DNA from: an uncultured Erythrobacter sp.
GTDB taxonomy: Bacteria; Pseudomonadota; Alphaproteobacteria; Sphingomonadales; Sphingomonadaceae
Direction: 5' to 3'
Assembly (NCBI GenBank): GCA_947488155.1
Contig: CANKYK010000001.1
Location: 558,001-622,000, forward strand
DNA length: 64,000 nt
In this document: in pieces, positions 12,192-48,080 of the stretch
Layout: every line of letters starts with the position of its first letter
How positions within the stretch are numbered: position 1 is the first letter of the stretch
Notes under the pieces: generated by a model
What the model saw: only the letters and a program-made list of their open reading frames with translations
What the model was told of the DNA's origin: nothing
The model's database searches: none
Program-made: the position numbers and the translations under genes

Positions 12192-13775
12192 CTACCAGAG
12201 GTATGCGTAGAGGCCGATGAGGATGGCGATGGTGATGGTTGCGAGTGTGTTGAACAGCGCGCTGGTGGCAAAGGCGATGTCGCCCAGCTTCACAGTCTGC
12301 TCCTCATCCGGTGCTGCCGTCATGCGTGAGACGATGGCTGCGGCAACAAGGCCAACCAGGAACACGATCCAGATCCGCACCACAAATGGCAGATCAGGCA
12401 GAACCGCGTTGACGATGAAGTTCAGCGCAACCGACCCAATCAGCGCGGTAAAGGCGCCGGCCGCATTGGCCCTTTTATCAAAGAAGCCGAGCAAGAACAC
12501 GATCACCACGCCCGGCGCGATATAGCCGGTGTATTCCTGAACCGTCTGAAACGCGCTTTCAAACCCGCCGAGGAACGGCCGGGCCAGAACCAGCGCTAGC
12601 GCCATTGCAGTGAAGGCTGCCAAGCGGCCGACGGTCACATAATGCCGTTCACTCTCTTCCGGCTTGACGCTGCGATAAAGGTCCATCGTGAAGATCGTCG
12701 AGATCGAGTTCATCATCGAAGCCAGCGAGCTGACCACCGCTGCGATCAACGCGGCAAACACAAGGCCGCGCAGGCCAGCAGGGGCAAAGCCCATAAGCTC
12801 GCCATAGGTCCGGTCTGAACGCTCCGCGAGTGCAACCCCATCAAGCGCGCCCTGCTGCGCCAGAATGACTGCAGCAATACCGGGGATCACAACAATAAAC
12901 GGCACAACCAGTTTCAGGAACGCAGCAAAGGCCAGGCCCTTCTGCGCCTCGCCCAGGCTCTCTGCGCCAAGCGCGCGCTGGATGATGTACTGGTTGAACC
13001 CCCAATAGCTGAAGTGCAGCACCCACAGCCCGCCCAGCAGCGTCCAGATACCTGGCAGATCGCCATAGGCCGGATGGTCATTGTCGAGGATCATCTCAAA
13101 GTGGCCCGGCATCTCGCCCGCCAGATAACTCAGCCCGCCCAGCGCGCCATCCGCTGGCAGAGCATCAAGCGCAAACCAAGTGATCGCAAAGCCACCGAGG
13201 ATCAGGATCACGACCTGGATAATGTCAGTCAGCGCAACGGCCTTCAGCCCACCATAGAGCGAATAAAGCGCTGCAAACGCCGCCAGCGCCGCCATAGACG
13301 TCAGCACGCCCCAGCCGGTCAGGCTTTCCACTGCAAGGCCACCCAGCCACAGCACGGTGGTGAGGTTGACCGCCGTGTACAAAGCGACCCAGAAGACGCT
13401 CATCAGCGTCTTTACGCCGCTGCCATATCGCTGCTCAAGGAACTGCGGCATCGTATAAATGCGCCGCTTCAAAAAGATCGGTAGGAAGTACTTTGCAACG
13501 ATGATCAGAACGAGCGCCGCCTGCCATTCATAGGCCGCGATCGCCATGCCCACGGCAAAGCCCTGGCCCGACTGACCGATGATCTGTTCCGCTGATATGT
13601 TCGATGCAATCAGCGAGGCACCGATTGCCCACCACGGCAAAGCGCGACCGGCAAGAAAGTAATCCTCGGTGTTCTTATCGCGGCCCTTAGGCTCGCGGCT
13701 CACCGCCAAGGCTATCCCCAGCAACGCCACCGCATACCCAACAATGATCACGATATCGATCGTCTCAAGCGTCAC
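12192..13775 (-). CDS. Sodium/sugar symporter, SSS family (SglT-like)
   Basis: This 527-residue inner-membrane protein has about 14 hydrophobic segments. The N-terminal part has STEDYFLAGRALPWWA-like sequence (here NTEDYFLAGRALPWWAIGASLIASNISAEQIIGQSG), a close match in my memory to the Vibrio Na+/galactose transporter vSGLT. The YEWQAAL and IYTMPQFLEQRYG segments also agree with sugar-type SSS members. It couples Na+ influx to monosaccharide or small glycoside uptake. It lies downstream of the TonB-dependent receptor on the same strand, but a hairpin at 13854-13874 separates them, so it may have its own promoter. Its location suggests it imports the sugar released by this locus. Confidence 0.88.
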   Translation of the reverse strand: MTLETIDIVIIVGYAVALLGIALAVSREPKGRDKNTEDYFLAGRALPWWAIGASLIASNISAEQIIGQSGQGFAVGMAIAAYEWQAALVLIIVAKYFLPIFLKRRIYTMPQFLEQRYGSGVKTLMSVFWVALYTAVNLTTVLWLGGLAVESLTGWGVLTSMAALAAFAALYSLYGGLKAVALTDIIQVVILILGGFAITWFALDALPADGALGGLSYLAGEMPGHFEMILDNDHPAYGDLPGIWTLLGGLWVLHFSYWGFNQYIIQRALGAESLGEAQKGLAFAAFLKLVVPFIVVIPGIAAVILAQQGALDGVALAERSDRTYGELMGFAPAGLRGLVFAALIAAVVSSLASMMNSISTIFTMDLYRSVKPEESERHYVTVGRLAAFTAMALALVLARPFLGGFESAFQTVQEYTGYIAPGVVIVFLLGFFDKRANAAGAFTALIGSVALNFIVNAVLPDLPFVVRIWIVFLVGLVAAAIVSRMTAAPDEEQTVKLGDIAFATSALFNTLATITIAILIGLYAYLW

Positions 13776-13913: not shown

Positions 13914-16900
13914 TCAGTAAGTTGCGCGAACGATAAAAGTGAAACGTCTATCATTACGGAAAAAGTTGCGCGGAGCCCGCAATCCATCTTCGTTGATACT
14001 CTGCTCCGTCACCGTAACGTCATCAAGCAAGTTCACACCTTGAACACCAAACTTAATCTTGTCGGTAACATCAAAGAAAAGAGATGCATCAAGCTGACCC
14101 GTGCTTGGTTGATAAATTGAAGCAAACGGGAAGATCACATCGCGCGGCGTCAATTGGAAAGTACTGCGCCAATTGTACGCAAGCCGCGCCTGCACAGGAC
14201 CTTTCTCATAAAGGCCAACCGCATTGATGTTATGAGTTGATATTCTTGGGAAAATTCCTGAATCAATATCAAATCGTGCAGTCGGTGGATCATCGCTTGG
14301 GATGTTGGGATCAAGCTCGTTAGCGACACCTTCCGAGTCGATATAAGTGTAAGTGAACTGGGCACCCAAACCACTCAAAACACCAGGCAAGAAGTCAAAG
14401 AACTGCTGATAGGCAACTTCAAATCCAGTAACACTAGCAGATTCGTCCGAATTGACCTCGGTATTGCGCAGCAGTGGATTGGTAATTGGATTGTTCAAGA
14501 AATCGTCAGAGACTTCTCCTTCCGGCAAATCGACGGCAACCGGAGCGAACGATATGAAGTCGTCAATTTCCTTATGAAATCCAGTGATAGTGATGGAACC
14601 AGCGTTGTCAAAGTACCATTCCCAAGAAACGTCAAGATTCCAAGCCGTTTGAGGGCTAAGATTGGCGTTCCCAGTCGCATTGCCCACAAATCCCTCAAAT
14701 GGGTTGATTGTGCCACCAGCACCATCAGAGATCGGGGAACCCGAGAGGGTTTGCAAAACCACCCGTTCATTGAGTTGGTCAACGCCTGGTCTCGTAAGAG
14801 TGCGAGAAACCGCTAGGCGCAGTACATGATCGTTCGGCAGGTCAAGTTTCAAGTTCAGGCTGGGCAAGAACTCGTCGTAAGAACGCTCAAGGGTTCGCTG
14901 AAGTGCAAAACCCGAACCCAAGGCAGCTTCTAGGCCGTCTAGATCAAGGCTACAAAAGTCCGGAACGGTAAATGAGGGATCAGGCGGAGTTGGCGTGAAA
15001 CCTGGGTCGCAAAGGTTCGCATTTGGGAAAACTTCCGCAAAGCTGTCGACCTGAAGAGAACTATCAACAGAGCGTTCAGTTCGAACGTAACGAAGCCCGA
15101 CATTACCAGAAAGACGAGGCAAGGACTCTGTCGGTTGCTCAAAGTCGACGCGCACATATGCAGAAAAATTGTCACGCTCGATCGAGCCAATTTCGCTCGG
15201 CAGGAACGGCGTTCCCGCAATCACTCCGCTACGAGATGTAAGAGGACGCCAGCCTGATGGGCTATTATTGCCAACCCCGTACAACGTATCAATAATGCCG
15301 TTGAAAGTGTCCTGAAAACCCTGAAAATCGCGCGCTGCAGGGCCAGTGTAGGCCGGAATTGGCCCGCCCAAACCCGTATTCAAGCCACGTTGATAATCCT
15401 GAAACTCAAAACCGCCGAATATTGGGGAAACAAGTTGATCAAGCGCCGGGTTAGGGTTTCCACCCAGCAAGAGGACCGAGCCAATTTCATCAAATACGGG
15501 AGAACCATCAGGATTGAGAGTAGCTAAACCCTGAATATCCTGACCAGTCCAGACCTCAGAGATATTGCCCCAGTTAAAGTCCGATTGCCGCAGCAGGGAT
15601 TCCTGCTGTTGATAGCGTGCGCCACCCCGGACAGACCGAAGCCAGCCATCGCCGGAAAAATCATATTCGACATCACCGCGGAATGCGAAAGAATCTGCCT
15701 CATTCTGCGTGATATGATCCATTGCAGAACGTAGGAAGAAATTGCTGGGATCTTGGAAATAATCCGCCGCCCCACTCGAAGGCACCACGAGACTAACCTC
15801 TGGCACTGTTCCCGTAGAGCCATCGATAAAGATGGGAGCAAAGAAACTGCTATGCACCGTCAAATCCACAACGTCTGCCGTCGACGTAATGTACTGCGCA
15901 TCGAAATTGAAACGCAGATTATCAGTTGGCGAAAATTTCAGATTGAAGCCGTAATCTTCCGTAACGTCTTCCTCAAACCGTTGACGGAAGAGATTGAGTT
16001 GCTGCCCACCAGACCCCGGCGTAAATGCAGGAGGGAAGAGTGCGGCAGTCGCATTTGGACCGCGCCATTGCTGATTATCGTCGATCGTTCCGCCGGTAAA
16101 GACACCGTCATTGCCAAAGGTAAAATCGCTCTGATTCAAGGTATCGCGGGCACTCGCACTATCAGCAACCGTCTCAATAACGTTCTCGCCCCAAATCAAT
16201 TCAGAGTCTGAACGGAGGAATTGCGCAGTTGCCAGCCAACGACCATCGTTACTCTCATATTGAGCAGCACCCGCAATAGTCAGACGCTCGCGGTCGAACT
16301 CCTGAGTGCGAATACTCCCCCCAGAAGGCACAAAGCCATTTGCTGTCTCAATAAAGTCCACAATGCCGGTACCATCCGCACGCGACTGAAGCTCGCTGTA
16401 AGCAACATTGGCCAGAATACCAAAACGTCCGGCACTCGTGTCCCAACTATTTGAGTAAAGACCTGAAAACGTCGGTGACCACTCTTCGCGAAGATCACTG
16501 TAATTTGCTTCAGCCGAAACCGAAATGGTTTGGCCAGCCTGATCAAAAGGCAGACGTGTGCGCAAATCAATCGTACCAGCTGCGCCGCCCTCAATCAGGT
16601 CTGCTGAAGAGTTTTTGAATACAACAACGCTGCCAAGCAACTCTGGCGACACATCCTCAAAACCCAGAACACCACCCGAATTCGCTCCGAAAACATCGCG
16701 GCCGTTAAGCTCTGAGCGCACAAATGGAAGGCCACGAATAACAACGCCACTACCCTCAACCGCAAAGTGATCAGGGTCGTTAGGCCCGGCGAACCGCAAA
16801 ACGCTCACCCCAGGAACGCGTTGTAGAACTTCGGCAACAGACCGATCAGGCAAAGCGCCGATATCTGATGCAGTTACAACGTCAACAACGGTGTCCGCGT

Positions 16901-17120
16901 TTCGCTTAATCCCTTGCGCACTTTCGAGCGAAGCGCGGATACCGGTGACGATAATGGCATTGCCATCATCTTCAGCGGGCTCGGTCGCCTCGGCACCATC
17001 TTGCGGGGCCTCGTCTTGAGCAATCGCCGGCGCAGCCGCCAGCAGCCCCAAGGACGAGACGCTCGTCAAAAGCGTTTTGGACACGGCACCACTTACGGCA
17101 CGAGTGTGGATCTGTTTCAC
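13914..17120 (-). CDS. TonB-dependent receptor, Caulobacter/Xanthomonas carbohydrate type
   Basis: This 1068-residue outer-membrane receptor starts at the GTG at 17120, with GGGGAGG upstream. The start gives the signal peptide MKQIHTRAVSGAVSKTLL...APAIAQ. A TonB-box-like NAIIVTGIRASL follows, then the plug domain (ADTVVDVVTASDIGALPDRSVAEVLQRVPGV) and a long beta-barrel ending in aromatic-rich FRNDRRFTFIVRATY. The ASLESAQGIKRNAD and DIGALPDRSVAEVLQRVPG segments are diagnostic of the TonB-Xanth-Caul subfamily. These receptors often import oligosaccharides in bacteria that lack SusD. It lies directly downstream of four halogenase-like genes. Its own upstream gap carries an operator-like 16-mer, and an SSS sugar symporter follows. 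The ligand is inferred to be a plant or algal oligosaccharide or glycoside. Confidence 0.92.
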   Translation of the reverse strand: MKQIHTRAVSGAVSKTLLTSVSSLGLLAAAPAIAQDEAPQDGAEATEPAEDDGNAIIVTGIRASLESAQGIKRNADTVVDVVTASDIGALPDRSVAEVLQRVPGVSVLRFAGPNDPDHFAVEGSGVVIRGLPFVRSELNGRDVFGANSGGVLGFEDVSPELLGSVVVFKNSSADLIEGGAAGTIDLRTRLPFDQAGQTISVSAEANYSDLREEWSPTFSGLYSNSWDTSAGRFGILANVAYSELQSRADGTGIVDFIETANGFVPSGGSIRTQEFDRERLTIAGAAQYESNDGRWLATAQFLRSDSELIWGENVIETVADSASARDTLNQSDFTFGNDGVFTGGTIDDNQQWRGPNATAALFPPAFTPGSGGQQLNLFRQRFEEDVTEDYGFNLKFSPTDNLRFNFDAQYITSTADVVDLTVHSSFFAPIFIDGSTGTVPEVSLVVPSSGAADYFQDPSNFFLRSAMDHITQNEADSFAFRGDVEYDFSGDGWLRSVRGGARYQQQESLLRQSDFNWGNISEVWTGQDIQGLATLNPDGSPVFDEIGSVLLLGGNPNPALDQLVSPIFGGFEFQDYQRGLNTGLGGPIPAYTGPAARDFQGFQDTFNGIIDTLYGVGNNSPSGWRPLTSRSGVIAGTPFLPSEIGSIERDNFSAYVRVDFEQPTESLPRLSGNVGLRYVRTERSVDSSLQVDSFAEVFPNANLCDPGFTPTPPDPSFTVPDFCSLDLDGLEAALGSGFALQRTLERSYDEFLPSLNLKLDLPNDHVLRLAVSRTLTRPGVDQLNERVVLQTLSGSPISDGAGGTINPFEGFVGNATGNANLSPQTAWNLDVSWEWYFDNAGSITITGFHKEIDDFISFAPVAVDLPEGEVSDDFLNNPITNPLLRNTEVNSDESASVTGFEVAYQQFFDFLPGVLSGLGAQFTYTYIDSEGVANELDPNIPSDDPPTARFDIDSGIFPRISTHNINAVGLYEKGPVQARLAYNWRSTFQLTPRDVIFPFASIYQPSTGQLDASLFFDVTDKIKFGVQGVNLLDDVTVTEQSINEDGLRAPRNFFRNDRRFTFIVRATY

Positions 17121-17190
17121 TAAATTTCCTCCCCTTAGAGCCTCCACTTTACGGAGGTCACCTTAACTTATCCCTTAATTCAATCCCAAA

Positions 17191-17206
17191 TTGACAACCT
17201 TGTCAA
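17191..17206. promoter_or_regulatory. LacI-type operator (TTGACAACCTTGTCAA) upstream of the receptor
   Basis: TTGACAA and TTGTCAA are perfect 7-bp inverted arms around CC. The same 16 bases occur between the SMP-30 and GH3 genes at 34494-34509, and a variant lies at 41575-41590. A further TTGTCAA half-site is at 17213. The site ends 71 bp before the receptor GTG. Shape and distribution fit a LacI-family repressor, and the only LacI gene in the window is at 30942-31994. Confidence 0.7.
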
Positions 17207-17257: not shown

Positions 17258-18775
17258 TTAACTCATTGTATTTGAAGAACAATTTTCCTCAATAAACGAT
17301 CGGTGCGTCGGCATATCGTTGGCCGCGTTATCAATTGTTGCTCGGACCTTGTGCAAGATCGAATCAATCCGCTCCATCGGCAGCTTTGCGATTAACGGAT
17401 TGCTGGCCTGCGGCTGGACACCTTGACCATACATCACCGCGAGCCAGCTGGCAGTGCCGAAAATATCGTTCGGCTCTTCAAAAATCCGCCCCCCCTGCTC
17501 GAATTGCGCGATCCGTCGGCGCAGCTCCTCGGGCTGCTCAATCGTTTGGCAATGCCGCCAAAACGGCGTGTCGTCGCGCTGAGTCGCGGTGTAATGCAAA
17601 ACCAGAAAATCGCGGACCCGGATGTACTCTTTGAGAGTGCGCGCGTTAAACGCATCGATATCGGGCTGACTAAAGCGCTTGTCCGGGAAATGCGTCAGCA
17701 ACCGGGCGATGCTGGTTTGAACGAGGTGAATGCTGGTGGATTCGAGCGGCTCCATGAACCCGGCCGCCAGCCCAAGCGCGAGCACGTTGCCGCTCCAGAA
17801 TTGCTTGCGATGCCCTGTGACAAAACGCAGCCGATTGGGCTCGGCCAAAGGTTCGCCATCCAGATTGCTCAGCAGAGTCTTCTCCGCGGTATCATCGTCA
17901 AGAAATTCACTGCAATAGACATAGCCATTGCCGGTGCGATGTTGCAGCGGGATGCGCCATTGCCATCCGGCCTCACGGGCCGTGGCCCTAGTGTAGGGGA
18001 TGGGGAAGGCATCACGGGTACAGGGGATCGCCACGGCCCGGTCACACGGCAGCCATTTACGCCAATCCTCATATCCGGTTTCCAGCGTTTGCTCGATCAA
18101 CAACCCGCGAAACCCGGAACAATCGACGAAGAAATCGCCGCTGATAGATTGGCCAGATTCCAATTCAAGCGAACGCACATGGCCGCTCTCGCTGTCTTGC
18201 GCGACATTGCTGATCCGTCCCTCGATCCGTTCAACGCCCTTACCCTCTGCAAAGCGTCGCAGAAACGCGGCATAAAGGGAGGCATCAAACTGAAATGCAT
18301 AATTAATCCCTGCAAAGGCCGATTGCGGACGCTCCGGGGTTGCCCGCATGAACTTCTCGCGCCGGCATGCCTCCACCATCAGCGAATAGGAAAACAGATC
18401 GTCTTTGTACCCGGCCAGGTTGCGGTGCAGCCAATATTGGTAAAACGGAATAGCATCGAAATCGCGACCAAAATCGCCAAAAGGGTGGATGTAGCTCTCA
18501 CCCTTTTTGAACCAATCAACGAACTCAATCCCAAGCTTGAAGGTGGCATTGGTCTCACGAACGAACTCGTTCTCATCAATGCCCAGCATGGTGTTGAACG
18601 CAATGATCGGCGGAATGGTGGCCTCGCCCACACCCACGGTTCCGATGGCTTCGGATTCGATCAACGTCACCTTGGTTGGCGAGCCTTCGAGCAGGTGGCC
18701 GAGCGCGGCAGCAGTCATCCAGCCAGCGGTCCCGCCGCCAACAATCACAACACGGTCGAGCAAATGAGGGTTCAT
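17258..18775 (-). CDS. Flavin-dependent tryptophan-halogenase-like protein (copy A)
   Basis: This 505-residue protein has all hallmarks of FADH2-dependent halogenases. These are the dinucleotide-binding GGGTAGW at residues 13-19, the catalytic lysine in TFKLGIEF (K80, equivalent to K79 of PrnA/RebH), the WxWxIP motif as WQWRIP and the catalytic glutamate in EPLESTSIH. The start overlaps the stop of the preceding gene by four bases (ATGA), so it is translationally coupled as the last of four halogenase-like genes. Relatives beside TonB-dependent receptors in Brevundimonas (BrvH) and Xanthomonas halogenate free indole in vitro, preferring bromide, but their natural substrate is not known. No flavin reductase gene is adjacent. 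A secondary-metabolite function is not supported by the neighbours. Confidence 0.9.
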   Translation of the reverse strand: MNPHLLDRVVIVGGGTAGWMTAAALGHLLEGSPTKVTLIESEAIGTVGVGEATIPPIIAFNTMLGIDENEFVRETNATFKLGIEFVDWFKKGESYIHPFGDFGRDFDAIPFYQYWLHRNLAGYKDDLFSYSLMVEACRREKFMRATPERPQSAFAGINYAFQFDASLYAAFLRRFAEGKGVERIEGRISNVAQDSESGHVRSLELESGQSISGDFFVDCSGFRGLLIEQTLETGYEDWRKWLPCDRAVAIPCTRDAFPIPYTRATAREAGWQWRIPLQHRTGNGYVYCSEFLDDDTAEKTLLSNLDGEPLAEPNRLRFVTGHRKQFWSGNVLALGLAAGFMEPLESTSIHLVQTSIARLLTHFPDKRFSQPDIDAFNARTLKEYIRVRDFLVLHYTATQRDDTPFWRHCQTIEQPEELRRRIAQFEQGGRIFEEPNDIFGTASWLAVMYGQGVQPQASNPLIAKLPMERIDSILHKVRATIDNAANDMPTHRSFIEENCSSNTMS

Positions 18776-20304
18776 GCAGGTTCCGTCACAAATGAAATGG
18801 GCGCCGCCTTACAGAAGCGGTCAATATAGGCTTGGTGGGTCGGCATGGCCTGGGCCGCCTTGGCATAGCTGGCGCGCATGTTCGTAAGACTGCCCTTCAG
18901 GTTCGCCTCTGACAATCCGCTAGCTATTGCGTTGAAGCCCTGCGGGCCCCACCCCTGCCCCTCAGCAACCGCAATCCAGCTGGTCACATCGAACAATTCC
19001 GCATCATATTTGAAGAAGCGACCCTGCGATTTGAGCAACTCTAGCTTGCCCGCCAGGCTACCTGGAATATCCATTTCCCGCACATAATTCCAAAACGGCG
19101 CGTCATCGCGCTTGGTCGCCTTGTAATGCAGGATCAGAAAGTCACGCACATGGGTGAAATCATCAGTCATCAAGCGGTTGTATTCTGCCCTCTCCACTGG
19201 AGCATCGGCCCTGCTTGGGAACAGCGTCACAAGTTTCGCAATGCCCATATGGATGAGGTGAATACTGGTCGATTCGAGCGGCTCCAGAAAGCCGGAAGAC
19301 AGCCCAATCGCCACGCAATTTCCAGCCCAGAATTCTTCGCGGTGGCCAGTGCGGAAGCGCAGATGATTGGGCGAGGAAACCGGTGCGCCATCAAGGCTCG
19401 CCAGCAGGGTTTTTTCGGCCTCTTCCGCGCTCAGATACTCATCGCAATAGACATAGCCATTTCCGGTACGATGTTGCAGCGGGATGCGCCATTGCCACCC
19501 AGCCTTGCGCGCGGTTGAGCGAGTGAAAGGTACCGGATCGCCTTGCTTCTCGCAGGCCACGGCTACGGCGCGGTTGCAGGGCAGCCAATGGCTCCAATCC
19601 TTATGGACAGAGCCCATTGCTCCGTCGATCAGCAGTCCGCGAAAGCCGGTGCAATCGATAAACAAGTCGCCCTCAATCTGGCGATCATGGTCAAGCGACA
19701 GCGCCGTGATCAGGCCGCTATCACTGTCTTGCTCAACCTCTTCAATCCGTCCTTCGATCCGGGTTACGCCCAACCCTTCGGCAAATCGGCGCAGGAATGC
19801 GGCGTAAAGCCCGGCATCAAAATGATAGGCATAGCCTAGCTGGCCAATTACTGCCCCGTGATCAGGTTCTGGCCGCAGGAATTTGCCCGCATAGGCCGCG
19901 CAGGTGTTGAGCGAATAATCAGCCAGACCATGCGCATCGCCCAGGCTTTTTAACCGCGACCAATATTGATGAAATTCAACCCCCTCCAGGTCAAAGCCAT
20001 ATCGGCCGAAGGGATGGAAATAACGCTCTCCCAAACCGCCCCAATCAGCAAATTCGATCCCTAGCTTAAAAGTTGCCTGAGTCTCGCGCACAAAGGTGTG
20101 CTCATCAATGCCCAGCTGGGTGTTGAACTTTGTGATCGGCGGAATGGTCGCCTCGCCAACGCCGACCGTCCCGATTGCCTCAGACTCGACCAGCGTTACG
20201 GAGACATCAGCGGGCATCACCATTTTTGCCAGAGCTGCTGCCGTCATCCAGCCAGCGGTGCCACCGCCAGCGATTATGACGCGCTTGATCGATCTTTCTG
20301 TCAT
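18772..20304 (-). CDS. Flavin-dependent tryptophan-halogenase-like protein (copy B)
   Basis: With the start at ATG 20304 (ATGA overlap with the upstream gene's stop) this is 510 residues. An in-frame start at 20361 lies inside the neighbour and is less likely. It has GGGTAGW at 13-19, catalytic lysine K80 in TFKLGIEFADW, WQWRIP and EPLESTSIHLIH, so it should be an active FADH2-dependent halogenase or a related flavin monooxygenase. Its stop overlaps the start of copy A by four bases. It is similar to copy A along its length, which suggests an old local duplication. Function in the carbohydrate locus is unknown. Confidence 0.9.
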   Translation of the reverse strand: MTERSIKRVIIAGGGTAGWMTAAALAKMVMPADVSVTLVESEAIGTVGVGEATIPPITKFNTQLGIDEHTFVRETQATFKLGIEFADWGGLGERYFHPFGRYGFDLEGVEFHQYWSRLKSLGDAHGLADYSLNTCAAYAGKFLRPEPDHGAVIGQLGYAYHFDAGLYAAFLRRFAEGLGVTRIEGRIEEVEQDSDSGLITALSLDHDRQIEGDLFIDCTGFRGLLIDGAMGSVHKDWSHWLPCNRAVAVACEKQGDPVPFTRSTARKAGWQWRIPLQHRTGNGYVYCDEYLSAEEAEKTLLASLDGAPVSSPNHLRFRTGHREEFWAGNCVAIGLSSGFLEPLESTSIHLIHMGIAKLVTLFPSRADAPVERAEYNRLMTDDFTHVRDFLILHYKATKRDDAPFWNYVREMDIPGSLAGKLELLKSQGRFFKYDAELFDVTSWIAVAEGQGWGPQGFNAIASGLSEANLKGSLTNMRASYAKAAQAMPTHQAYIDRFCKAAPISFVTEPA

Positions 20305-21347
20305 GCCGCCTGCACCTGCCGAGTTAGACTGGCGATCTGCCCGCGCAATTGATCCAGCCAATCCAAAAGCTGCGAATCTGTGAGGCGCTCTGCCATCCGA
20401 TCAGACCGGCGCGGGCGAACACCGCGCGCCCATAGCGCCGCAAGCCATTCTGGCGGCGTGAACACTTCATAATCCTCAGTTGGGATCCGCCCGCATGCTG
20501 CAAAAACCTCTGCCTTACGCTGCAATGCAGGGCGTGTGCTCGCCAACGGATCCTCTATGTTCAGCAGTTCTTGCATATCAGCCATCCGCTCTCGCTGCGC
20601 TAGGGCCAATCGGGTCCACTCGGCCTGCTCTGGCACGCAATCAGACAAGGGCGCTGCTAAGTTGGCAAATCGCCGCGTCGCACTGCTCAACGCGTGCCAT
20701 TCAAGCCCGGAGATACCGCTTTGCTGCGCAATATTGAGCTCCTGCCCCTGCCACTTGGGCGCTTGTGCATCTGACGAACATTGGATCACCAAACTCGCAC
20801 TCTGCGCCTGTTCACTGCTCGCCTCGATCACGCTCGCGCCGCCCGCCTTGGCGAAAGACAACAGTGCATTGCCATAAGCGCTGCGGTCAAATGCGATGCC
20901 AAAATCGACTGGCAACTGCTCCAATTGTGCCAGTGGCGGCTTATGCGCGGCGTTTTGCAGCGCCAGCGACAGGGAAAATTCCGTGAGATCAGCTTGCTGA
21001 GACAGGCGGCTGGCGCGGAGCCAATATTGGTGAAACTCAACCCCGCCGCGCGGCACGCCAAAGGCGGAAAACGGCAACTGCACTGCCGCGCCATCTGCCG
21101 TCCGCGTCTCAGCTGCTAAAATCGGAGAGCCTCCACAGCGGGCAAACAACTGATCAATTGGCAGGCCCATCTCAGCGTGGAAGCGGTGAACACTGGGCCG
21201 GGTCGCAAAGGAGCCTGTAGCCTTATCCTCGGTGCCGACTGCCAACTCCAAAGAGCGCCCTGGCCCTAGCCAACGGCTGGCTAGATAGGCGCCAATAACT
21301 CCCGCCTGCAGCGGCGATCCGCGAACAAGGATGCGCTCGGTGCTCAT
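20301..21347 (-). CDS. Degenerate halogenase-like protein lacking catalytic motifs (copy C)
   Basis: This 348-residue protein is shorter than its three neighbours (505-513). Homology is still visible in GVEFHQYWLRASRL (compare GVAFHQYW and GVEFHQYW in copies D and B). The C-terminal segment FTPPEWLAALWARGVRPRRSDRMAERL also matches the family's SWLAVMYGQGVQP region. The nucleotide-binding GxGxxG is replaced by VRGSPLQAGVIG. The TFKLGI lysine, the WxWxIP motif and the PLEST glutamate are all absent. The frame is intact and coupled by 4-bp overlaps at both ends, so it seems maintained. It may be a non-catalytic partner or scaffold for the flanking halogenases, or an early decay product. Confidence 0.75.
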   Translation of the reverse strand: MSTERILVRGSPLQAGVIGAYLASRWLGPGRSLELAVGTEDKATGSFATRPSVHRFHAEMGLPIDQLFARCGGSPILAAETRTADGAAVQLPFSAFGVPRGGVEFHQYWLRASRLSQQADLTEFSLSLALQNAAHKPPLAQLEQLPVDFGIAFDRSAYGNALLSFAKAGGASVIEASSEQAQSASLVIQCSSDAQAPKWQGQELNIAQQSGISGLEWHALSSATRRFANLAAPLSDCVPEQAEWTRLALAQRERMADMQELLNIEDPLASTRPALQRKAEVFAACGRIPTEDYEVFTPPEWLAALWARGVRPRRSDRMAERLTDSQLLDWLDQLRGQIASLTRQVQAA

Positions 21348-22885
21348 GCCGCTGCCCGCATCATATTGTTACGCGTGAGATAGGCCGCGTGGTCTTCCAT
21401 CGAACCGGCGGCCTTTTCCATATGGCCTTTTAGCCCCGCAAGATGACGCAAAACCTCCGCATCAGCCTGCCCAGAAACACGGGCATCAAAACTGCTGGGT
21501 AACACACGCTGACCGATCAGCACCGCAACCCAGCTTGGCACCAGAAACAGCCCGTGATCATAGGCGCTGACATGGCCATGTGCAGTGAACAGCTCTAGCC
21601 GTTCGGCCAGGCTGTCGGGCACATTCATCGTGCGCATGTGGTTCCAGAAATCGGAATCGTCGCGCTCTGTCGCGTGGTAGTGCAGGATCAGAAAATCACG
21701 CACCCGCTCAAACTGCAGGTCCATCCAGCGGTTGTATTCCGCCACTTCCACATCGCAGTCCTGATTCGCCGGAAACAGCTCCAGTAACTTGGTGATGCCC
21801 TCTTGGATCAAATAGATGCTGGTCGATTCCAGCGGCTCCAGGAAACCACCGGACAGGCCAATCGCCACGACGTTGCGGCTCCACAATTTGCGCCTCTTGC
21901 CTGTTACGAAACGCAGGAAGCGCGGGTCGGCCAACCGCTCCCCCTCCAGCCCGTCCAGCAAGGTGTCGCACGCCGCATCATCGCTTAGGAATTGGCTTGA
22001 GTATACATGGCCATTACCGGTGCGATGCTGCAGCGGAATGCGCCAGCTCCACCCGGCCTCATGCGCCGTAGCCCGAGTGTATGGCAACAGCGGCCCGTCG
22101 CTCTCACATGGCACAGCAACCGCACGGTCGGCGGGTAACCACTCGCTCCAATCGTCATAACCAGCGCTCAGCGTCTTCTCGATCAGCAGGCCGAAAAAAC
22201 CGGTGCAATCGACGAACAAATCACCCTCTACCACGCGCCCATCATCCATGGTCAACGCGCTCACTCGCCCGCTTTCCGGCTCCAGCGTGACATCGACCAC
22301 CTTGCCTTCCATCCGTGTGACCCCGCGCGCCTCTGCGTGGGTGCGCATGAACGGCGCATATTGCAGCGCGTCGAATTGATAGGCGTAACGATAGGTCGAC
22401 ATGACCGAACGGGGATCTTCGCTAGGCGGTTGAAACTTGCCCATGCGCGAGGCGATGACAGGAAGTGAATATTCATCGAGCGCGCCAACTCCTGGTCGGC
22501 CAGCAAACTTGCGCCAATACTGGTGGAAGGCAACACCAGCATTTGGCAGGCCAAATTCACCGAAAGGGTGGATATAACTATCGCCCTTGCGGCCCCAGTT
22601 CACAAACTCAATGCCCAGCTTAAAGGTCGCCGAGGTCGCGGCCATAAACTCCGCTTCGTTGACGCCGATCGTATCGTTGAAATTTTTTATATGCGGCAGT
22701 GTGGCCTCGCCCACGCCGACAACTCCAATCGCCTCTGATTCGACTAATGTGATTTCCAGGCCTGTCTGGCCAAGCATGCTGGCAAGACCAGCCGCAGTCA
22801 TCCAGCCAGCGGTTCCCCCGCCAACCACAACCACGCGGTTTATCGCTCGCTTGCCCTCATTCGCGCCCACAGGCCGTTCCTCCAT
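21344..22885 (-). CDS. Flavin-dependent tryptophan-halogenase-like protein (copy D)
   Basis: This 513-residue first gene of the halogenase-like operon carries GGGTAGW at 22-28, the catalytic lysine K89 in ATFKLGIEFVNW, the WxWxIP motif as WSWRIP and the glutamate motif EPLESTSIYLIQ. Its stop overlaps the start of copy C by four bases. The promoter must lie in the 166 bp shared with the divergent Gfo/Idh/MocA gene, which contains a half-match to the LacI operator. It should use FADH2 from an unlinked reductase. A role in modifying an aromatic aglycone or signalling during glycan use is possible but unproven. Confidence 0.9.
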   Translation of the reverse strand: MEERPVGANEGKRAINRVVVVGGGTAGWMTAAGLASMLGQTGLEITLVESEAIGVVGVGEATLPHIKNFNDTIGVNEAEFMAATSATFKLGIEFVNWGRKGDSYIHPFGEFGLPNAGVAFHQYWRKFAGRPGVGALDEYSLPVIASRMGKFQPPSEDPRSVMSTYRYAYQFDALQYAPFMRTHAEARGVTRMEGKVVDVTLEPESGRVSALTMDDGRVVEGDLFVDCTGFFGLLIEKTLSAGYDDWSEWLPADRAVAVPCESDGPLLPYTRATAHEAGWSWRIPLQHRTGNGHVYSSQFLSDDAACDTLLDGLEGERLADPRFLRFVTGKRRKLWSRNVVAIGLSGGFLEPLESTSIYLIQEGITKLLELFPANQDCDVEVAEYNRWMDLQFERVRDFLILHYHATERDDSDFWNHMRTMNVPDSLAERLELFTAHGHVSAYDHGLFLVPSWVAVLIGQRVLPSSFDARVSGQADAEVLRHLAGLKGHMEKAAGSMEDHAAYLTRNNMMRAAA

Positions 22886-23009: not shown

Positions 23010-23025
23010 TTGACAACGTAAGACA
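23010..23025. promoter_or_regulatory. Candidate LacI half-operator in the divergent promoter region
   Basis: TTGACAACGTAAGACA keeps the left arm TTGACAAC of the operator at 17191 and 34494, but the right arm is degraded. An inverted TGTCAA sits 15 bp upstream at 22990-22995, so a wide-spaced TGTCAA...TTGACA pair is also possible. It lies 27 bp before the GTG of the oxidoreductase operon and 125 bp before copy D. Confidence 0.4.
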
Positions 23026-23051
23026 ATAGAGGTCTTCGGGGAGAGGTTTTT

Positions 23052-24251
23052 GTGAGTTCTGCACGTGTGCGGATGGGAATGGCTGGCGGCGGCCAGGGCG
23101 CCTTTATTGGTGGCGTCCACCGTATGGCAGCAGCACTTGATGGCCAGATTGATCTGGTCTGCGGTGCATTCAGCCGCGATTTTACCAACAGCCTGGCGAC
23201 CGGCAAGGCATTGGGACTCTCTGAAAAACGCTGCTATCAAGATGTCTCAACCATGCTCGCCCGCGAAGCGCAGATTGCAGGCGGAAGCACTGGCGAACGC
23301 GATCCGATGGGCTTCCTATCGATTGTCACCCCTAATCACACCCATGCACCGATGGCGAAAGCGGCGGCAGAGGCGGGCTTTCACATTATGTCGGACAAGC
23401 CAGCGGGCATAAGTCTGGCTGAGATCGAGGCTTTGGCCGAAACTCTGCAAGCCACTGGCGTGTATTACGGCCTGACGCATACCTATCTAGGCTATCCCAT
23501 GGTGTGGCAGGCACGGCATTTGGCAACCCGGGCGGAATTTGGCCCGATCCGCAAAGTGCTGGTGAATTATACCCAAGGCTGGCTTGCCAGCGAGACGGAA
23601 AGCGCAGGCAGCAAGCAGGCGGAATGGCGGGTCGATCCAGAGCGGTCCGGCCCCGCTGGCGCGCTTGGTGATATTGGCAGCCACGCCCATAGCCTGGCGG
23701 AATTTATCGCCGATTCACGGATGGCTCGGCTGTCCGCGCGGCTGCGCAGCCATTATCCGACCCGCCCACTCGATGATGATGGTGAGATCAGTTTCTCGCT
23801 GGAAAACGGCGCAACTGGACAACTCATCTCTAGCCAGATTTGCGCGGGCGATGAGAATGATCTGACGATTCGTATTTATGGCGAACATTCGAGCCTGGAA
23901 TGGCGGCAAATGGAGCCAAACACACTTACACAGCGGCTCGCCAGCGGTCAGAGCGTCATCCACCGCGCCGGTGTCGACAAACCGCTGTGCGCTGAGGCAC
24001 TTAACCGGTGCCGCCTGCCCTCTGGTCATCCAGAGGGGTATCTTGAGGCATTTGCTAACCTTTACCGCCATTTCGCCCAGGCATTGCGCGACGGGGTGGC
24101 GCCTTTATCGCTCGGAGTGCCCGGCATTGCAGAGGCTTTGCGCGGCATGGCCTTCCTTGAAGCAGCAGTGGCCAGCAACGCCGCCAATGGCGCCTGGCAC
24201 GATATCAAAGCGCCCTCGGCGGGCTCCGATTTGAAAGGTCTTCTCACGTGA
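23052..24251 (+). CDS. Gfo/Idh/MocA family NAD(P)-dependent oxidoreductase
   Basis: This 399-residue protein starts at GTG 23052 with GGGGAGAGG upstream. The N-terminal Rossmann fold begins [18 protein letters not shown]. The family's catalytic lysine is in the motif SDKPAG (the usual EKP) around residue 118. [12 protein letters not shown] precedes it and the C-terminal half is an alpha/beta dehydrogenase domain with [13 protein letters not shown]. It has no signal peptide and should act in the cytoplasm on a sugar or keto-sugar. It is the first gene of a six-gene unit: oxidoreductase, TIM-barrel isomerase, MFS, dehydrogenase small subunit, GMC dehydrogenase and lipoprotein TIM-barrel. Enzymes of this family reduce or form 3-keto-glycosides in related loci, which is my preferred but unproven role. 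Confidence 0.85.
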
Positions 24252-25324
24252 AGGAACTTCGTGGACCAGCCATTTTCCTCGCCCAGTTTATGGGCGACAC
24301 CGCGCCGTTCAATTCGCTAGATACAATCGCGAAATGGGTTGCAGACCTGGGTTATAAGGGCGTTCAAATTCCCTCTAACGATCCGCGCTGCATGGATCTC
24401 GATCTTGCTGCAGAAAGTCAGGATTACTGCGACGAGCTAGCCGGTCGCTGCGCCGAGCATGGCCTCACCATCACGGAGCTGTCGACCCACTTACAAGGCC
24501 AATTGGTGGCAGTGCATCCGGCCTATGATGAAATGTTCGATGCCTTCGCACCCGAGGCGCTGCATGGCAAACCAGCCGAGCGTCAGGAATGGGCAGTCGA
24601 CCAAATGAAGAAATGCGCCGTTGCCTCGCGCAGGCTCGGCCTGAAGGCATGCGCGAGTTTCTCTGGTGCGCTGATGTGGCACCTCGTCTATCCTTGGCCT
24701 CAACGTCCGGCTGGATTGGTTGAGGCTGGCTTTGCCGAACTTGCCAAGCGTTGGCGGCCGATCCTGGACGTTTACGAAGACAATGGCGTTGATGTCGCAT
24801 TTGAAATTCACCCTGGTGAAGACCTGCACGATGGCGCAACTTTTGAGGCGTTCCTTGAGGCGGTGGACAATCATCCGCGCGCCAACATCCTGTTCGACCC
24901 GAGTCATTTCGTGCTGCAACAGCTCGACTATCTCGACTTTATCCACCGCTATCATGACCGAATCAAAGCCTTCCACGTGAAGGATGCGGAGTTTCAGCCA
25001 AATGGACGCACCGGCGTCTATGGCGGCTATCAGGGTTGGCAAGATCGCGCGGGCCGTTTCCGTTCGCTTGGTGATGGGCAGGTCGATTTCCGCCAGATCT
25101 TCAGCAAGCTGACTCATTACGGGTTTGATGGTTGGGCAGTTCTGGAATGGGAGTGTTGCTATAAACATCCCGAGCAAGGCGCCGCCGAAGGCGCGCCGTT
25201 CATTGCGGATCATATCATCCGCCCAACCGAATACGCATTTGACGATTTTGCCGGCGGGGACATTGACCCCGCGATGATTGCAACAACCCTGGGCATAATG
25301 CCCAAGGGTTCAGGAGAAAATTGA
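24248..25324 (+). CDS. Sugar phosphate isomerase/epimerase family TIM-barrel enzyme
   Basis: This 358-residue member of the xylose-isomerase-like TIM barrel superfamily (AP endonuclease 2 fold) starts at a GTG that overlaps the previous stop by four bases. The metal-binding residues are visible in order: FEIHPGE, LFDPSHF, FHVKDAEF and VLEWECCYKH. It is cytoplasmic. Proteins of this type paired with Gfo/Idh/MocA oxidoreductases include 3-keto-glycoside lyases, C-glycoside deglycosidases and inositol-pathway isomerases. The dehydrogenase downstream favours the 3-keto-sugar reading. Its stop overlaps the following ATG by one base. Confidence 0.82.
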   Translation: MKELRGPAIFLAQFMGDTAPFNSLDTIAKWVADLGYKGVQIPSNDPRCMDLDLAAESQDYCDELAGRCAEHGLTITELSTHLQGQLVAVHPAYDEMFDAFAPEALHGKPAERQEWAVDQMKKCAVASRRLGLKACASFSGALMWHLVYPWPQRPAGLVEAGFAELAKRWRPILDVYEDNGVDVAFEIHPGEDLHDGATFEAFLEAVDNHPRANILFDPSHFVLQQLDYLDFIHRYHDRIKAFHVKDAEFQPNGRTGVYGGYQGWQDRAGRFRSLGDGQVDFRQIFSKLTHYGFDGWAVLEWECCYKHPEQGAAEGAPFIADHIIRPTEYAFDDFAGGDIDPAMIATTLGIMPKGSGEN

Positions 25325-26661
25325 TGCAGGCGAGCGAATATCCACGCCAAAAACTGTTTTGGATCGGGGTTTTGACCCTGTTTACTGCTGCCCTCCTATT
25401 TTCCTTAAGAGTAGGGTTGGCTGGCGATATTCAGGCCGATATCTATGCCGGACTCAGTAACCCAGGCGAAGCCATTGGTAGCGCCTTGGGAGCAGCCTTT
25501 CTAGGTTTCGGCTTCACCTTGTTCCTGGCTAGCCCGCTGCTCGATGCGCTGGGCATTGGCAATGTCCTGCGCGGCGCGGGCACATGTTTTTTTGGCGGGA
25601 CAGTCTTGGCTGTGGGTGGCGCTAGCTTTGCTGGGCCTGAAACCGCCCAGACGCTGTTCTGGCTTGGCTTCCTAATCCAGGGCATTGGCTGGGGCGCGAT
25701 GGAGGCAGCGGTCAATCCCATGACCACCGCGCTCTATCCCGAGGAAAAGACTCACCGGCTCAATGTGCTGCACGCATGGTGGCCTGCTGGCTTAATCGCG
25801 GGCGGACTCATCGGCTTCGCGGTCAGCGGGCTGGAGATTCCTTGGCGCATGGCGATGTCGGTCGCGTTCCTGCCAGCGCTTTTGGTGTTGATCCTTTCAA
25901 TCGGTGTCCGTTTCCCACCAACCGAGCGTGCAGCGGACGGCGTATCGTTTAAAGACATGATGCTTGAAATTGTCCGTGCACCGACATTTCTCGTCTGGCT
26001 CGGCGCAATGTTGCTTACGACATCGCTCGAACTGGGCCCGGCAAGCTGGATTAACACCGCCTTGTCAGCGAAGGTCGGTTTCAATGCAGTGCTGCTGCTG
26101 GTTTACGTCTCTGGGTTGATGTTCGTAATGCGTCACTTCGCTGGCGCGCTAGCAAACAAGCTATCCAATGCTGGCGTCCTGTGGGTGTCCAGCCTTACTG
26201 CAATGATTGGCCTGTATGCCATGTCACAGGCATCAAGCCCGGTCCTTATCATAGCCGCAACCACGATCTGGGGCATGGGCGTTGCTCTGCTGTGGCCCAC
26301 CATGATGGCGACCGTATCAGAACGCTATCCGCGCGGTGGCAGCTGGTTCATCGGTCTGATCGGATCATTCGGCGCGCTCGCGATCTACTTCCTCTTGCCC
26401 CAGCTTGGCCGGATGTATGACGCAGCGATGGTTGTAGAGGCAGGCACTGCGGAAGCGCTAGCGGCCTTGCGCGACGCGGGTACGCCAGAGGCAGCCGCAC
26501 AATTGCAAGCGATCGAAGCTGAGGCCGCACCGCAAGCGTTTGAATTTGTGGCGATGATGCCCATCCCCCTCCTGCTGATCTTCGGTGTAATTTGGTTCCT
26601 TGATCGCAGACGCAAACAATCAGAGGCAAACGCGCCTCAAGTGCAAGCGGAGCAGGCATGA
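25324..26661 (+). CDS. MFS sugar transporter
   Basis: This 445-residue inner-membrane protein has about 12 hydrophobic segments and a short cytoplasmic tail. The ATG at 25324 overlaps the preceding TGA, and a GGAGAAAA lies just upstream. The AMEAAVNPMTTALYPEEKTHRLNVLHAWWPAG segment resembles FucP-like/FHS sugar permeases, where the N-P-T and histidine region lines the sugar path. Within the operon it probably imports the product of periplasmic glycan oxidation or hydrolysis. The stop overlaps the next start by four bases. Confidence 0.85.
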   Translation: MQASEYPRQKLFWIGVLTLFTAALLFSLRVGLAGDIQADIYAGLSNPGEAIGSALGAAFLGFGFTLFLASPLLDALGIGNVLRGAGTCFFGGTVLAVGGASFAGPETAQTLFWLGFLIQGIGWGAMEAAVNPMTTALYPEEKTHRLNVLHAWWPAGLIAGGLIGFAVSGLEIPWRMAMSVAFLPALLVLILSIGVRFPPTERAADGVSFKDMMLEIVRAPTFLVWLGAMLLTTSLELGPASWINTALSAKVGFNAVLLLVYVSGLMFVMRHFAGALANKLSNAGVLWVSSLTAMIGLYAMSQASSPVLIIAATTIWGMGVALLWPTMMATVSERYPRGGSWFIGLIGSFGALAIYFLLPQLGRMYDAAMVVEAGTAEALAALRDAGTPEAAAQLQAIEAEAAPQAFEFVAMMPIPLLLIFGVIWFLDRRRKQSEANAPQVQAEQA

Positions 26662-27227
26662 ATATGACAAATACACGGGCCAAGCTCAGCCGCCGCACCA
26701 TGCTGCGCGGCTCCATAACGGTGGCAGGCGCGGCGATTGTGCTGCCTGCCATGGGCAGTATCGCAGGTTGTTCCAATGGTGCAGGCGGCAGCCTAGCTGG
26801 AAAGCTCGAGCTAATCGATGCTGTCAGCGATCTGGTGATCCCGCAAACCGACACTCCTGGTGCGCGGCTCGCCAAGGTGCCAGCCTATATCGAGGCAGTC
26901 TTCACCGACCATTTCACCACAGAACAGCAAGATGATTTTGCCGCGGGTCTTTCCGTGTTTGACGACATGGCAACGGACGCGGGCGCCGACAGCTTTGCCA
27001 GCGCATCGGCGGATCAGCAGCGCACGATCTTGAGCGAGCTGGACACTGGACCGGGTGACATGACCGGCAAGGGCACGTGGCAGCAGCTGCGCGATATGAC
27101 GATCTTCGGCTTTTACACGTCAGAGGAAGCCACCAAGGAACTCGGTTTTGAAGAGATCCCTGGCCGTTATGAAGCCTGCGCACCCTTGGAAGAGGTCGGC
27201 CGAGCCTGGCTGAACCGCGGCGTTTAA
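26658..27227 (+). CDS. Sugar dehydrogenase small subunit (gluconate 2-dehydrogenase subunit 3 family), Tat signal
   Basis: This 189-residue protein begins MNMTNTRAKLSRRTMLRGSI and has a hydrophobic segment, which is a clear twin-arginine signal. The rest fits the Gluconate_2-dh3 family (DLVIPQTDTPGARLAKVPAYI, YTSEEATKELGFEEIPGRYEACAP). In known systems this subunit carries the signal and takes the folded FAD subunit to the periplasm by hitchhiking. It lies 27 bp upstream of a GMC oxidoreductase that has no signal of its own. No cytochrome c subunit follows, which is unusual for three-subunit enzymes. Confidence 0.88.
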   Translation: MNMTNTRAKLSRRTMLRGSITVAGAAIVLPAMGSIAGCSNGAGGSLAGKLELIDAVSDLVIPQTDTPGARLAKVPAYIEAVFTDHFTTEQQDDFAAGLSVFDDMATDAGADSFASASADQQRTILSELDTGPGDMTGKGTWQQLRDMTIFGFYTSEEATKELGFEEIPGRYEACAPLEEVGRAWLNRGV

Positions 27228-28964: not shown

Positions 28965-29821
28965 TGAAAGCACTTCAATCACTTGATCGCCGCGATGTTT
29001 TAAAAGGCGGCTTGCTCGGTAGCATCGGATTGCTCGCCGCCTGCAATGGCGTAGCGCCCACGCCGGAAACAGCGGCAAAGACCAGTCCCTACACAGGCAA
29101 GCTCGGTATTCAGCTGTACACTTTTCGCGAGCAGTTTGAGCAAGACTACGACGGTGTCCTCACCACCTTGGCTCAGATCGGTTATAAGGACCTAGAGTTT
29201 GCTGGTTATTATGATCACGATGCCGCCGCGATTAAGGCGCGGATGGATGATCTTGGTTTGGTCAGCAATTCCACTCATGTGCAGTTGGCTGATATGCAAG
29301 ACAATTTCGATGCGGTCATAGAGCGTGCGGCTTTGATGGGACAAACCAAGCTGATCATTCCTTGGCTTGCCCCAGAAGATCGCAATCTCGACAGATACAA
29401 AGCCATTGCAGACCTGCTCAATGAACGCGCTGGACCCGCAAAAGAGGCGGGCATGATAGTCGGCTATCACAACCATGAGTTTGAATTTGAAACGATTGAC
29501 GGTGAAGTGCCTTACGACATCTTGCTAGAGCGTACAGAGGCCGACGCAGTAACGATGGAGCTGGATTTCTTCTGGGCGCACAAGGCCAATGTTGACCCGC
29601 TAGAGCTATTCGCGAAAGCGCCAGGCCGTTTCTCTGCCTGCCATATCAAGGATGCATCTAAAGATGGTGAAATGGTCAACATCGGCGACGGCGTAATTGA
29701 TTTTTCTGCCATCTTGGCAGAGTCAGAGACCGCTGGATTGGAGTGTTTCTACGTCGAAAATGACGATACGAAAGATGCCGAAGGTTTTGCCAAAGCGAGC
29801 TTCGCTTACCTTGATCAGTAG
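28964..29821 (+). CDS. Exported lipoprotein TIM-barrel sugar isomerase/epimerase-like enzyme
   Basis: This 285-residue protein starts at ATG 28964, overlapping the GMC stop. The N-terminus DRRDVLKGGLLGSIGLLAAC has both a twin-arginine-like motif and a lipobox (LLAAC), so it should be anchored on the periplasmic side. The rest is a xylose-isomerase-like TIM barrel with YHNHEFEFE, MELDFFWAH, CHIKDAS and FYVENDD as candidate metal-ligand strands. A periplasmic enzyme of this fold right after a periplasmic dehydrogenase suggests it acts on the oxidised glycoside, for example as a 3-keto-glycoside lyase or hydrolase. That is inference. It is the last gene of the unit; a hairpin follows at 29828. 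Confidence 0.83.
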   Translation: MKALQSLDRRDVLKGGLLGSIGLLAACNGVAPTPETAAKTSPYTGKLGIQLYTFREQFEQDYDGVLTTLAQIGYKDLEFAGYYDHDAAAIKARMDDLGLVSNSTHVQLADMQDNFDAVIERAALMGQTKLIIPWLAPEDRNLDRYKAIADLLNERAGPAKEAGMIVGYHNHEFEFETIDGEVPYDILLERTEADAVTMELDFFWAHKANVDPLELFAKAPGRFSACHIKDASKDGEMVNIGDGVIDFSAILAESETAGLECFYVENDDTKDAEGFAKASFAYLDQ

Positions 29822-30913: not shown

Positions 30914-30941
30914 GTTAAGATCCCTTCTATTCACGTAGCTT

Positions 30942-34493: not shown

Positions 34494-34509
34494 TTGACAA
34501 CCTTGTCAA
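34494..34509. promoter_or_regulatory. LacI-type operator (TTGACAACCTTGTCAA) in the SMP-30/GH3 divergent promoter
   Basis: The 16 bases are identical to those at 17191-17206. They lie 39 bp from the SMP-30 start at 34455 and 77 bp from the GH3 start at 34586, so one site could control both directions and LacI itself. Confidence 0.75.
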
Positions 34510-34585
34510 AAAACGCTGCTAATAGGACAAGATTGACGAATAAGGATTCGTCGGCGCAAAGGTGTGTCGGCGGGGGAGAGCCAGA

Positions 34586-41046: not shown

Positions 41047-41052
41047 TGTCAC

Positions 41053-41574: not shown

Positions 41575-41590
41575 CTGATAACGTTGTCAA
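41575..41590. promoter_or_regulatory. Variant LacI-type operator (CTGATAACGTTGTCAA) before the cupin gene
   Basis: It matches TTGACAACCTTGTCAA at 13 of 16 positions and keeps the right arm TTGTCAA fully. It lies 25 bp upstream of the cupin start at 41550, close to where the core promoter should be. Confidence 0.6.
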
Positions 41591-48076: not shown

Positions 48077-48080
48077 GCGT

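Follow-up and report, generated by a model that had tools for sequence, protein, structure and literature searches.

We describe a set of four coupled genes in an uncultured Erythrobacter sp., lying on the minus strand between positions 17258 and 22885 of the 64,000-nucleotide stretch that was analysed (the window), in which three intact flavin-dependent halogenases, HalA, HalB and HalD, are predicted to be encoded together with a shorter paralogue, HalC, which is conserved and appears to be catalytically dead. HalC is no local accident but a member of a wider degenerate class, and one clade of intact halogenases, that of HalA, is paired with a copy of this class in every case sampled. A dead paralogue that is paired exclusively with one enzyme, and coupled to it in translation, is the genomic trace that a heteromer would be expected to leave; hence our proposal that HalA and HalC may act as a two-protein enzyme. 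The preliminary description of this DNA gave motifs for HalA, HalB and HalD only, and the dead, conserved state of HalC came to light in the present follow-up.

The halogenase gene set

The genes of the set and their junctions are as follows:

21344..22885, minus strand: halA, slot 1, predicted intact flavin-dependent halogenase of 513 amino acids (motifs; PF04820, 620 bits)
20301..21347, minus strand: halC, slot 2, degenerate halogenase-like protein of 348 amino acids (PF04820, 62 bits)
18772..20304, minus strand: halB, slot 3, predicted intact halogenase of 510 amino acids from its ATG (motifs; PF04820, 615 bits)
17258..18775, minus strand: halD, slot 4, predicted intact halogenase of 505 amino acids (motifs; PF04820, 644 bits)
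21344..21347, minus strand: ATGA overlap of halA and halC, 4 bases
20301..20304, minus strand: ATGA overlap of halC and halB, 4 bases
18772..18775, minus strand: ATGA overlap of halB and halD, 4 bases

Read on the minus strand from 22885 to 17258, the order is halA, halC, halB, halD; an ATG start is adopted here for halB, whereas the list of open reading frames (ORFs) opens this gene at a TTG at 20361. Flavin-dependent halogenases are marked by a GGGxxGW flavin motif, a catalytic lysine, WxWxIP and the glutamate of a PLEST motif. In HalA, HalB and HalD, GGGTAGW, KLG (Lys89, Lys80 and Lys80, respectively), WxWRIP and PLEST are all present, and each protein exceeds the PF04820 cut-off of 21 bits over its whole length; motifs and full-length Pfam scores together assign the three to this family. 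The motifs and the 4-base overlaps reported in the preliminary description are both borne out. The three proteins are 49–52% identical to one another, and their closest relatives of solved structure are those of the BrvH/Xcc4156 subgroup (for HalD, the nearest Protein Data Bank (PDB) entries are 9luq, 6y1w and 6frl). Elsewhere in the genome, a further halogenase-like stretch (G000:C1:353872-354768) matches PF04820 positions 125–428 only.

The intact members might not be halogenases, as the preliminary description suggested, but oxygenases or hypohalite generators, in line with the unsettled native activity of such enzymes and with a match to the flavin monooxygenase family QhpG, albeit a weak one (31–35 bits against a cut-off of 240). 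We give this little credence, because HalA, HalB and HalD retain every halogenase motif and because BrvH and its Xanthomonas counterparts have in vitro brominating activity on indole-type test substrates, according to the available part of PMC7336383.

The order A-C-B-D-receptor recurs in 7 of the 99 other genomes in a sample of relatives, all 7 carrying HalC orthologues. In each, the set lies opposite a Gfo/Idh-TIM-MFS-GMC-TIM operon like that of the window (see below; the MFS is a distant one in 4 of the 7), and in one locus (L043) an extra gene, encoding a DUF6445 protein, is inserted into the otherwise same arrangement. Four tandem paralogues in an order kept in this way are beyond chance.

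HalC is degenerate and conserved

Motif comparison reveals that HalC keeps none of the GGGxxGW motif, the catalytic lysine, WxWxIP and the PLEST glutamate. Its predicted structure, which is fairly confident, is a shrunken BrvH-like halogenase fold, and HalC shares both fold and common descent with the PF04820 halogenases; an HQYW-like stretch and the C-terminal domain are retained. Among the 7 relatives, HalC orthologues show 29–82% identity, against 61–97% for those of HalA, HalB and HalD. The ratio of non-synonymous (dN) to synonymous (dS) substitution rates between the window and two close relatives is 0.15–0.22 for HalC and 0.03–0.05 for the other three proteins; between those two relatives, the values are 0.13–0.16 and 0.03–0.06, respectively. 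HalC is under purifying selection. It is shorter than its kin and its dN is three to seven times that of HalA, HalB or HalD, as might be expected of a decaying pseudogene, but this explanation is highly improbable: the reading frame is open in all eight aligned orthologues, a fold is predicted with fair confidence, and we reject decay on the dN/dS values (0.13–0.22) and on the 116 degenerate copies kept across the whole sample.

Short proteins of the HalC type were found in 10 of 396 sampled genomes of the order (E at most 9.5e-49; no more than five candidates were scored in each genome), the next match being a full-length protein at E 2.8e-26. Named carriers include Erythrobacter crassostrea, Pontixanthobacter, an Altererythrobacter metagenome-assembled genome, an uncultured Kordiimonas and Erythrobacter longus (EH31_11935).

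A degenerate class paired with one halogenase clade

In other genera, the second gene of the array is full-length but degenerate, as is evident column by column in an alignment of 224 proteins. Proteins were sorted as intact or degenerate by the catalytic lysine and glutamate. In a first tree, built from 128 of the 224 rows (one locus per lineage), all 33 degenerate rows fall on one side of a branch (Shimodaira–Hasegawa-like approximate likelihood ratio test (SH-aLRT) support 99). The final set comprises 515 distinct rows, 403 intact and 112 degenerate, and again the 112 form one side of a single branch, with support of 100. Among these 112, the lysine is kept in 1 and the glutamate in 12; the motif WxWx[IV]P, which was not used for sorting, is present in 388 of the 403 intact rows and in none of the 112.

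The slot-1 clade, to which HalA belongs, contains 114 intact rows from 113 loci (support 98), and a degenerate gene lies directly behind every one of them: 109 were identified by script, four by tblastn and one (L238) by reading, an overlong ORF start having hidden the degenerate gene from the script. Behind the other intact rows of the final set, a degenerate gene was found for 0 of 289. Because this clade was chosen for fitting best, its perfect score owes something to that choice; that any branch fits the pairing without exception is still striking. Two degenerate copies lack an intact gene upstream: that in L094, at the edge of its contig, and that in L137. The latter (L137:9119-10108, minus strand) is a short degenerate halogenase standing by itself, no intact one having been found beside it, and is the only clear exception to the pairing.

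The lone copy in L137, together with the HQYW-like stretch and C-terminal domain of HalC, could indicate a free regulatory or ligand-binding protein, such as a sensor that has kept its substrate pocket, rather than a subunit of HalA. The one-to-one pairing with the clade of HalA and the overlap of the genes speak against this, and we think it improbable. Among 100 pairs measured, 91 of them distinct at a tree distance of 0.12, there are 82 in which the first possible start codon of the degenerate gene falls inside the intact gene; the gap is within 30 bases in 16 and exceeds 100 bases in 2.

Complete arrays (A, intact; P, degenerate) are of the form APAA in 46 cases (39 of them distinct at a slot-1 tree distance of 0.12), AP in 36, AA in 32 and APA in 16, with PAA, APAPA and AAA seen once each and four intact genes never. 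The APAPA case (L125:5253-12813, plus strand) is a five-gene array in which the pair seems doubled. Many loci of the window's family have the intact–degenerate pair facing two other intact genes, and in L178, L230 and L250 a Cupin_8 gene lies between the facing groups. The named loci span ten NCBI orders: Sphingomonadales, Caulobacterales, Maricaulales, Hyphomonadales, Kordiimonadales, Cellvibrionales, Alteromonadales, Lysobacterales, Arenicellales and Steroidobacterales.

How the loci were gathered bears on these counts. The first were picked by patterns derived from HalC, a bias that was reduced by adding 80 regions around part of the matches from a phylum-wide sample (63 of 398 genomes at E 1e-50); 11 of these regions have a degenerate copy, each time directly behind an intact one, and as the phylum-wide profile was built from degenerate proteins, some bias may remain. 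A slot-1 profile, built from enzymes already having a degenerate neighbour, was then searched against 337 genomes of the class (8 matched, E 1e-200) and 357 of the family (60 matched, E 1e-225). The pair is present in 50 of the 52 further loci so obtained, and the other two (L268 and L273) fall outside the slot-1 clade. A full-length slot-2 profile was rejected as a finder of degenerate copies: with three candidates scored per genome it ranked intact proteins first and did not separate the two kinds, so neighbourhoods were examined instead.

Because they duplicate other loci, L037–L040, L042, L043, L132 and L138 did not enter the survey. Rows shorter than 280 amino acids or scoring below 40 bits were dropped from the 224-protein alignment, as were rows below 200 amino acids in later scans and, for L222–L273, rows truncated at a contig end; the dropped rows include a degenerate piece from the end of a contig in L087. 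Two rows, from contig ends in L104 and L108, offered no PLEST column that could be read and were scored as intact. When the distance limit was widened, a row belonging to another array in L256 was also paired, falsely, since the pair spans two arrays. Where a locus has two equal-sized arrays it was counted once, so the numbers for arrays and for pair spacing and NCBI orders are low, and some genomes may occur twice in the sample.

The carbohydrate locus

The preliminary description placed the set between a receptor and a sugar-oxidation operon, and this is confirmed. The divergent operon, upstream of halA, comprises the following genes:

23052..24251, plus strand: Gfo/Idh oxidoreductase, assigned at family level (3v5n, 292 bits)
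24248..25324, plus strand: TIM barrel, probable 2-hydroxy-3-keto-glucal hydratase by homology (8ro4, 567 bits over 348 residues)
25321..26661, plus strand: MFS transporter (family match)
26658..27227, plus strand: small subunit resembling gluconate 2-dehydrogenase subunit 3 (PF13618)
27255..28964, plus strand: GMC oxidoreductase, probably for glycoside C3 oxidation (fructose/glucose dehydrogenase chains, 124–130 bits)
28967..29821, plus strand: second TIM barrel, candidate glycoside beta-eliminase (PF01261; 8tcd, 95.5 bits; 8bvk, 91 bits)

The matches of the second TIM barrel are weak, its sugar isomerase-like chains scoring 64–96 bits. As judged from these homologies, the operon resembles a glycoside C3-oxidation/beta-elimination pathway. 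An Agrobacterium operon degrades an aryl O-glucoside by oxidation, elimination, hydration and reduction (PMC10628242, as far as available), and its GlycDH-AtOGE-AtHYD-Gfo series is paralleled in the window by the GMC oxidoreductase, the two TIM-barrel sugar isomerase-like proteins and Gfo/Idh. Unlike the Agrobacterium pathway, the window operon adds the MFS gene and the gluconate 2-dehydrogenase subunit 3-like gene, and the available part of that description names no halogenase.

The cassette is not tied to this one sugar pathway, a notion that we considered and rejected: the five gene groups of the Gfo/Idh-TIM-MFS-GMC-TIM operon are present in 14–15 of 115 loci with degenerate copies (0–1 of 86 without), and in other lineages the four-gene set stands beside different sugar genes (FGGY kinase, GH43, GH9). 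Loci with degenerate copies have a sugar MFS in 20 of 115 cases, an aldehyde dehydrogenase in 10, CBM_4_9 in 12 and GH3 in 24, against 0, 0, 1 and 14, respectively, of the 86 loci without. What these loci share would seem to be the uptake of carbohydrate and not any single sugar. A TonB receptor is present in 86 of the 115 loci with and 62 of the 86 without degenerate copies, and the latter figure fits the earlier remark that single halogenases occur near such receptors. A DUF6445 gene (PF20043) recurs beside the halogenases (for example L043:6972-7658, L158 and L230), in 8 of 115 and 7 of 86 loci, respectively.

The role in glycan or aromatic-glycoside processing that had been suggested for the set is upheld in part. 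The aromatic-glycoside guess gets its best support from the likeness of the divergent operon to the aryl O-glucoside pathway (8ro4, 567 bits), and the aromatic part of imported glycosides is the likeliest substrate; on the other hand, the four-gene set also occurs outside this kind of sugar locus, and the one sugar handled here is therefore probably not its substrate. The main rival is a peptide or protein substrate, such that the enzymes would modify tryptophan or tyrosine of the organism's own peptide or envelope protein, with HalC binding the substrate. BrvH and Xcc4156 are among the nearest relatives of solved structure; their active sites are open, and peptides are their suspected substrates (PMC7336383, available part); TonB receptors occur in most loci of both kinds, and Cupin_8 and DUF6445 genes recur. 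Set against this, sugar transport and glycosidase genes occur in many of the loci, and we regard a peptide substrate as unlikely, if less so than the alternatives weighed above.

A putative LacI-type regulon

The remaining genes and sites of the locus are listed below:

12192..13775, minus strand: sodium:solute symporter (SSF; family match), downstream of the halogenases on the same strand
13914..17147, minus strand: TonB-dependent receptor (TIGR01782, 595 bits), downstream of the halogenases on the same strand
17191..17206: operator-like palindrome TTGACAACCTTGTCAA, 16 bp, before the TonB receptor
23010..23026: 17-mer TTGACAACGTAAGACAA, in the divergent promoter of halA and the Gfo/Idh gene
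29873..31000, minus strand: GH5 glycosidase (PF00150)
30942..31994, minus strand: LacI-family regulator (family match)
32007..33386, minus strand: MFS_2 sugar transporter (family match)
33400..34455, minus strand: SMP-30/gluconolactonase-like protein (PF08450)
34494..34509: second exact TTGACAACCTTGTCAA palindrome, between the SMP-30 and GH3 genes
34562..37120, plus strand: GH3 glycosidase (PF00933)

The TTGACAA palindrome was first spotted by eye in intergenic sequence and then tested. Exact copies of TTGACAACCTTGTCAA occur at two places only in the 3.2-Mb genome, 17191 and 34494; with up to three mismatches, the window contains 7 against 2.1 expected. Of 15 related loci scanned, 11 have the palindrome, with at most one mismatch, before the receptor, and an exact TTGACAACGTAAGACAA stands before the Gfo/Idh gene in 12 of the 13 that possess this operon. 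LacI-type palindromes with a CG centre were absent from the stretches scanned. Given the shared palindromic sites and the LacI-family gene at 30942–31994, the locus is probably a LacI-type regulon, with the regulator presumably binding at these sites, and the earlier suggestion of a LacI-controlled carbohydrate locus gains support. The Gfo/Idh start follows the site at 23010 by 25 bases, and halA is 124 bases away, which makes an effect on halA less sure. The neighbouring genes suggest that the TonB receptor takes up sugar.

Two further groups of genes lie beyond the locus. A DUF5060 protein is encoded at 39178–41052 (minus strand), with a palindrome-like site (two mismatches) at 41575 that possibly belongs to the same regulon. 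A run at 44423–49244 (minus strand), about 22 kb from the halogenases, encodes kynureninase, arylformamidase, tryptophan 2,3-dioxygenase (below the curated cut-off), phenylalanine 4-monooxygenase and an aromatic aminotransferase, and constitutes a tryptophan/phenylalanine catabolic operon.

A proposed two-protein halogenase

Our best overall explanation, for and against which we find the case evenly balanced, is that HalA and HalC would form an obligatory pair, HalA supplying the catalysis and HalC serving as a non-catalytic partner that would have lost the chemistry and kept the fold. Translated together, the two would most likely assemble into a hetero-oligomer replacing the usual halogenase homodimer, in which HalC may position the substrate or keep HalA in an active form; HalB and HalD would be two more catalytic enzymes, sharing this substrate or using a related one. 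On import of a glycoside, a LacI-type regulator would induce the set together with the TonB receptor, the symporter and the glycosidases. The set would most likely halogenate the aromatic part of the imported glycoside, or oxidise it via hypohalous acid (HOX) or a flavin hydroperoxide, and the divergent operon would strip the sugar by C3 oxidation, beta-elimination, hydration and reduction.

Several points weigh against this explanation. A mirror-tree coevolution test gave no special signal between slots 1 and 2, the partial correlation of slot 2 being 0.16 with slot 1, 0.19 with slot 3 and 0.43 with slot 4. Gene overlaps join other members of the set too, so coupling alone is no proof of contact between HalA and HalC. 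The slot-1 clade was selected after the fact, degenerate copies are long branches that may be drawn together in trees, and the short copy in L137 stands alone. In solution, the related enzyme Xcc4156 may be monomeric (PMC7336383, in the part available). Since the cassette has different sugar genes in other lineages, a substrate tied to the operon described here is uncertain, and the window neighbours scanned include no flavin reductase.

Comparison with characterized systems locates what is new. HalA, HalB and HalD share their fold and catalytic lysine and glutamate with RebH, PrnA, Thal and PyrH, although the identity of these to HalA is lower, at 31–34%. Crystals of these and other known family halogenases display similar homodimers, whereas a heteromer is proposed here; for BrvH (6frl) and Xcc4156 (6y1w), whose sites are open and whose native substrates are unsettled, perhaps peptides, no degenerate partner is mentioned, whereas here a dead paralogue adjoins slot 1 in each sampled case (PMC7336383, for the known enzymes, in its available part). 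Among the literature matches listed (in two cases 15 of 154 and 15 of 1,363), judged by title and start of abstract, with most subscription journals outside the scope, no dead halogenase partner or TonB-linked halogenase array is described. Full-text searches found nothing pairing 'halogenase' with 'pseudoenzyme', and nothing joining halogenase and TonB with Caulobacter or carbohydrate terms. A gene table on Sphingomonas colony morphology has a single halogenase row (PMC11340318, available part), the main text of PMC1790865 does not mention halogenase, the available part of PMC8269204 does not mention TonB, and that of PMC6299022 adds nothing to the question. The family itself being known and the conserved dead partner undescribed as far as these searches go, the novelty lies in the latter.

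More generally, heteromeric enzymes with a non-catalytic paralogue are a general idea, in which catalytic and dead paralogues are encoded side by side, as they are here; to our knowledge, no such heteromer has been reported for PF04820. We therefore raise, more tentatively than the explanation for the window itself and with some doubt, the possibility of a halogenase class whose members would need a dead paralogue as heteromeric partner in order to work, with one or two more intact enzymes often added to the pair. This cassette, encountered in ten NCBI orders of Alpha- and Gammaproteobacteria, would be ancient and belong mostly to TonB-linked sugar loci; in the present case it would act on the aromatic side of glycosides whose sugar leaves by C3 oxidation/beta-elimination. 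Halogenases of this kind are as a rule assayed as single purified proteins; if one whole clade needs a dead partner, its activity would go undetected in such assays. The question can be tested directly by co-expressing the pair, and the neighbouring pathway points to a substrate class, namely, beta-glucosides with aromatic aglycones.

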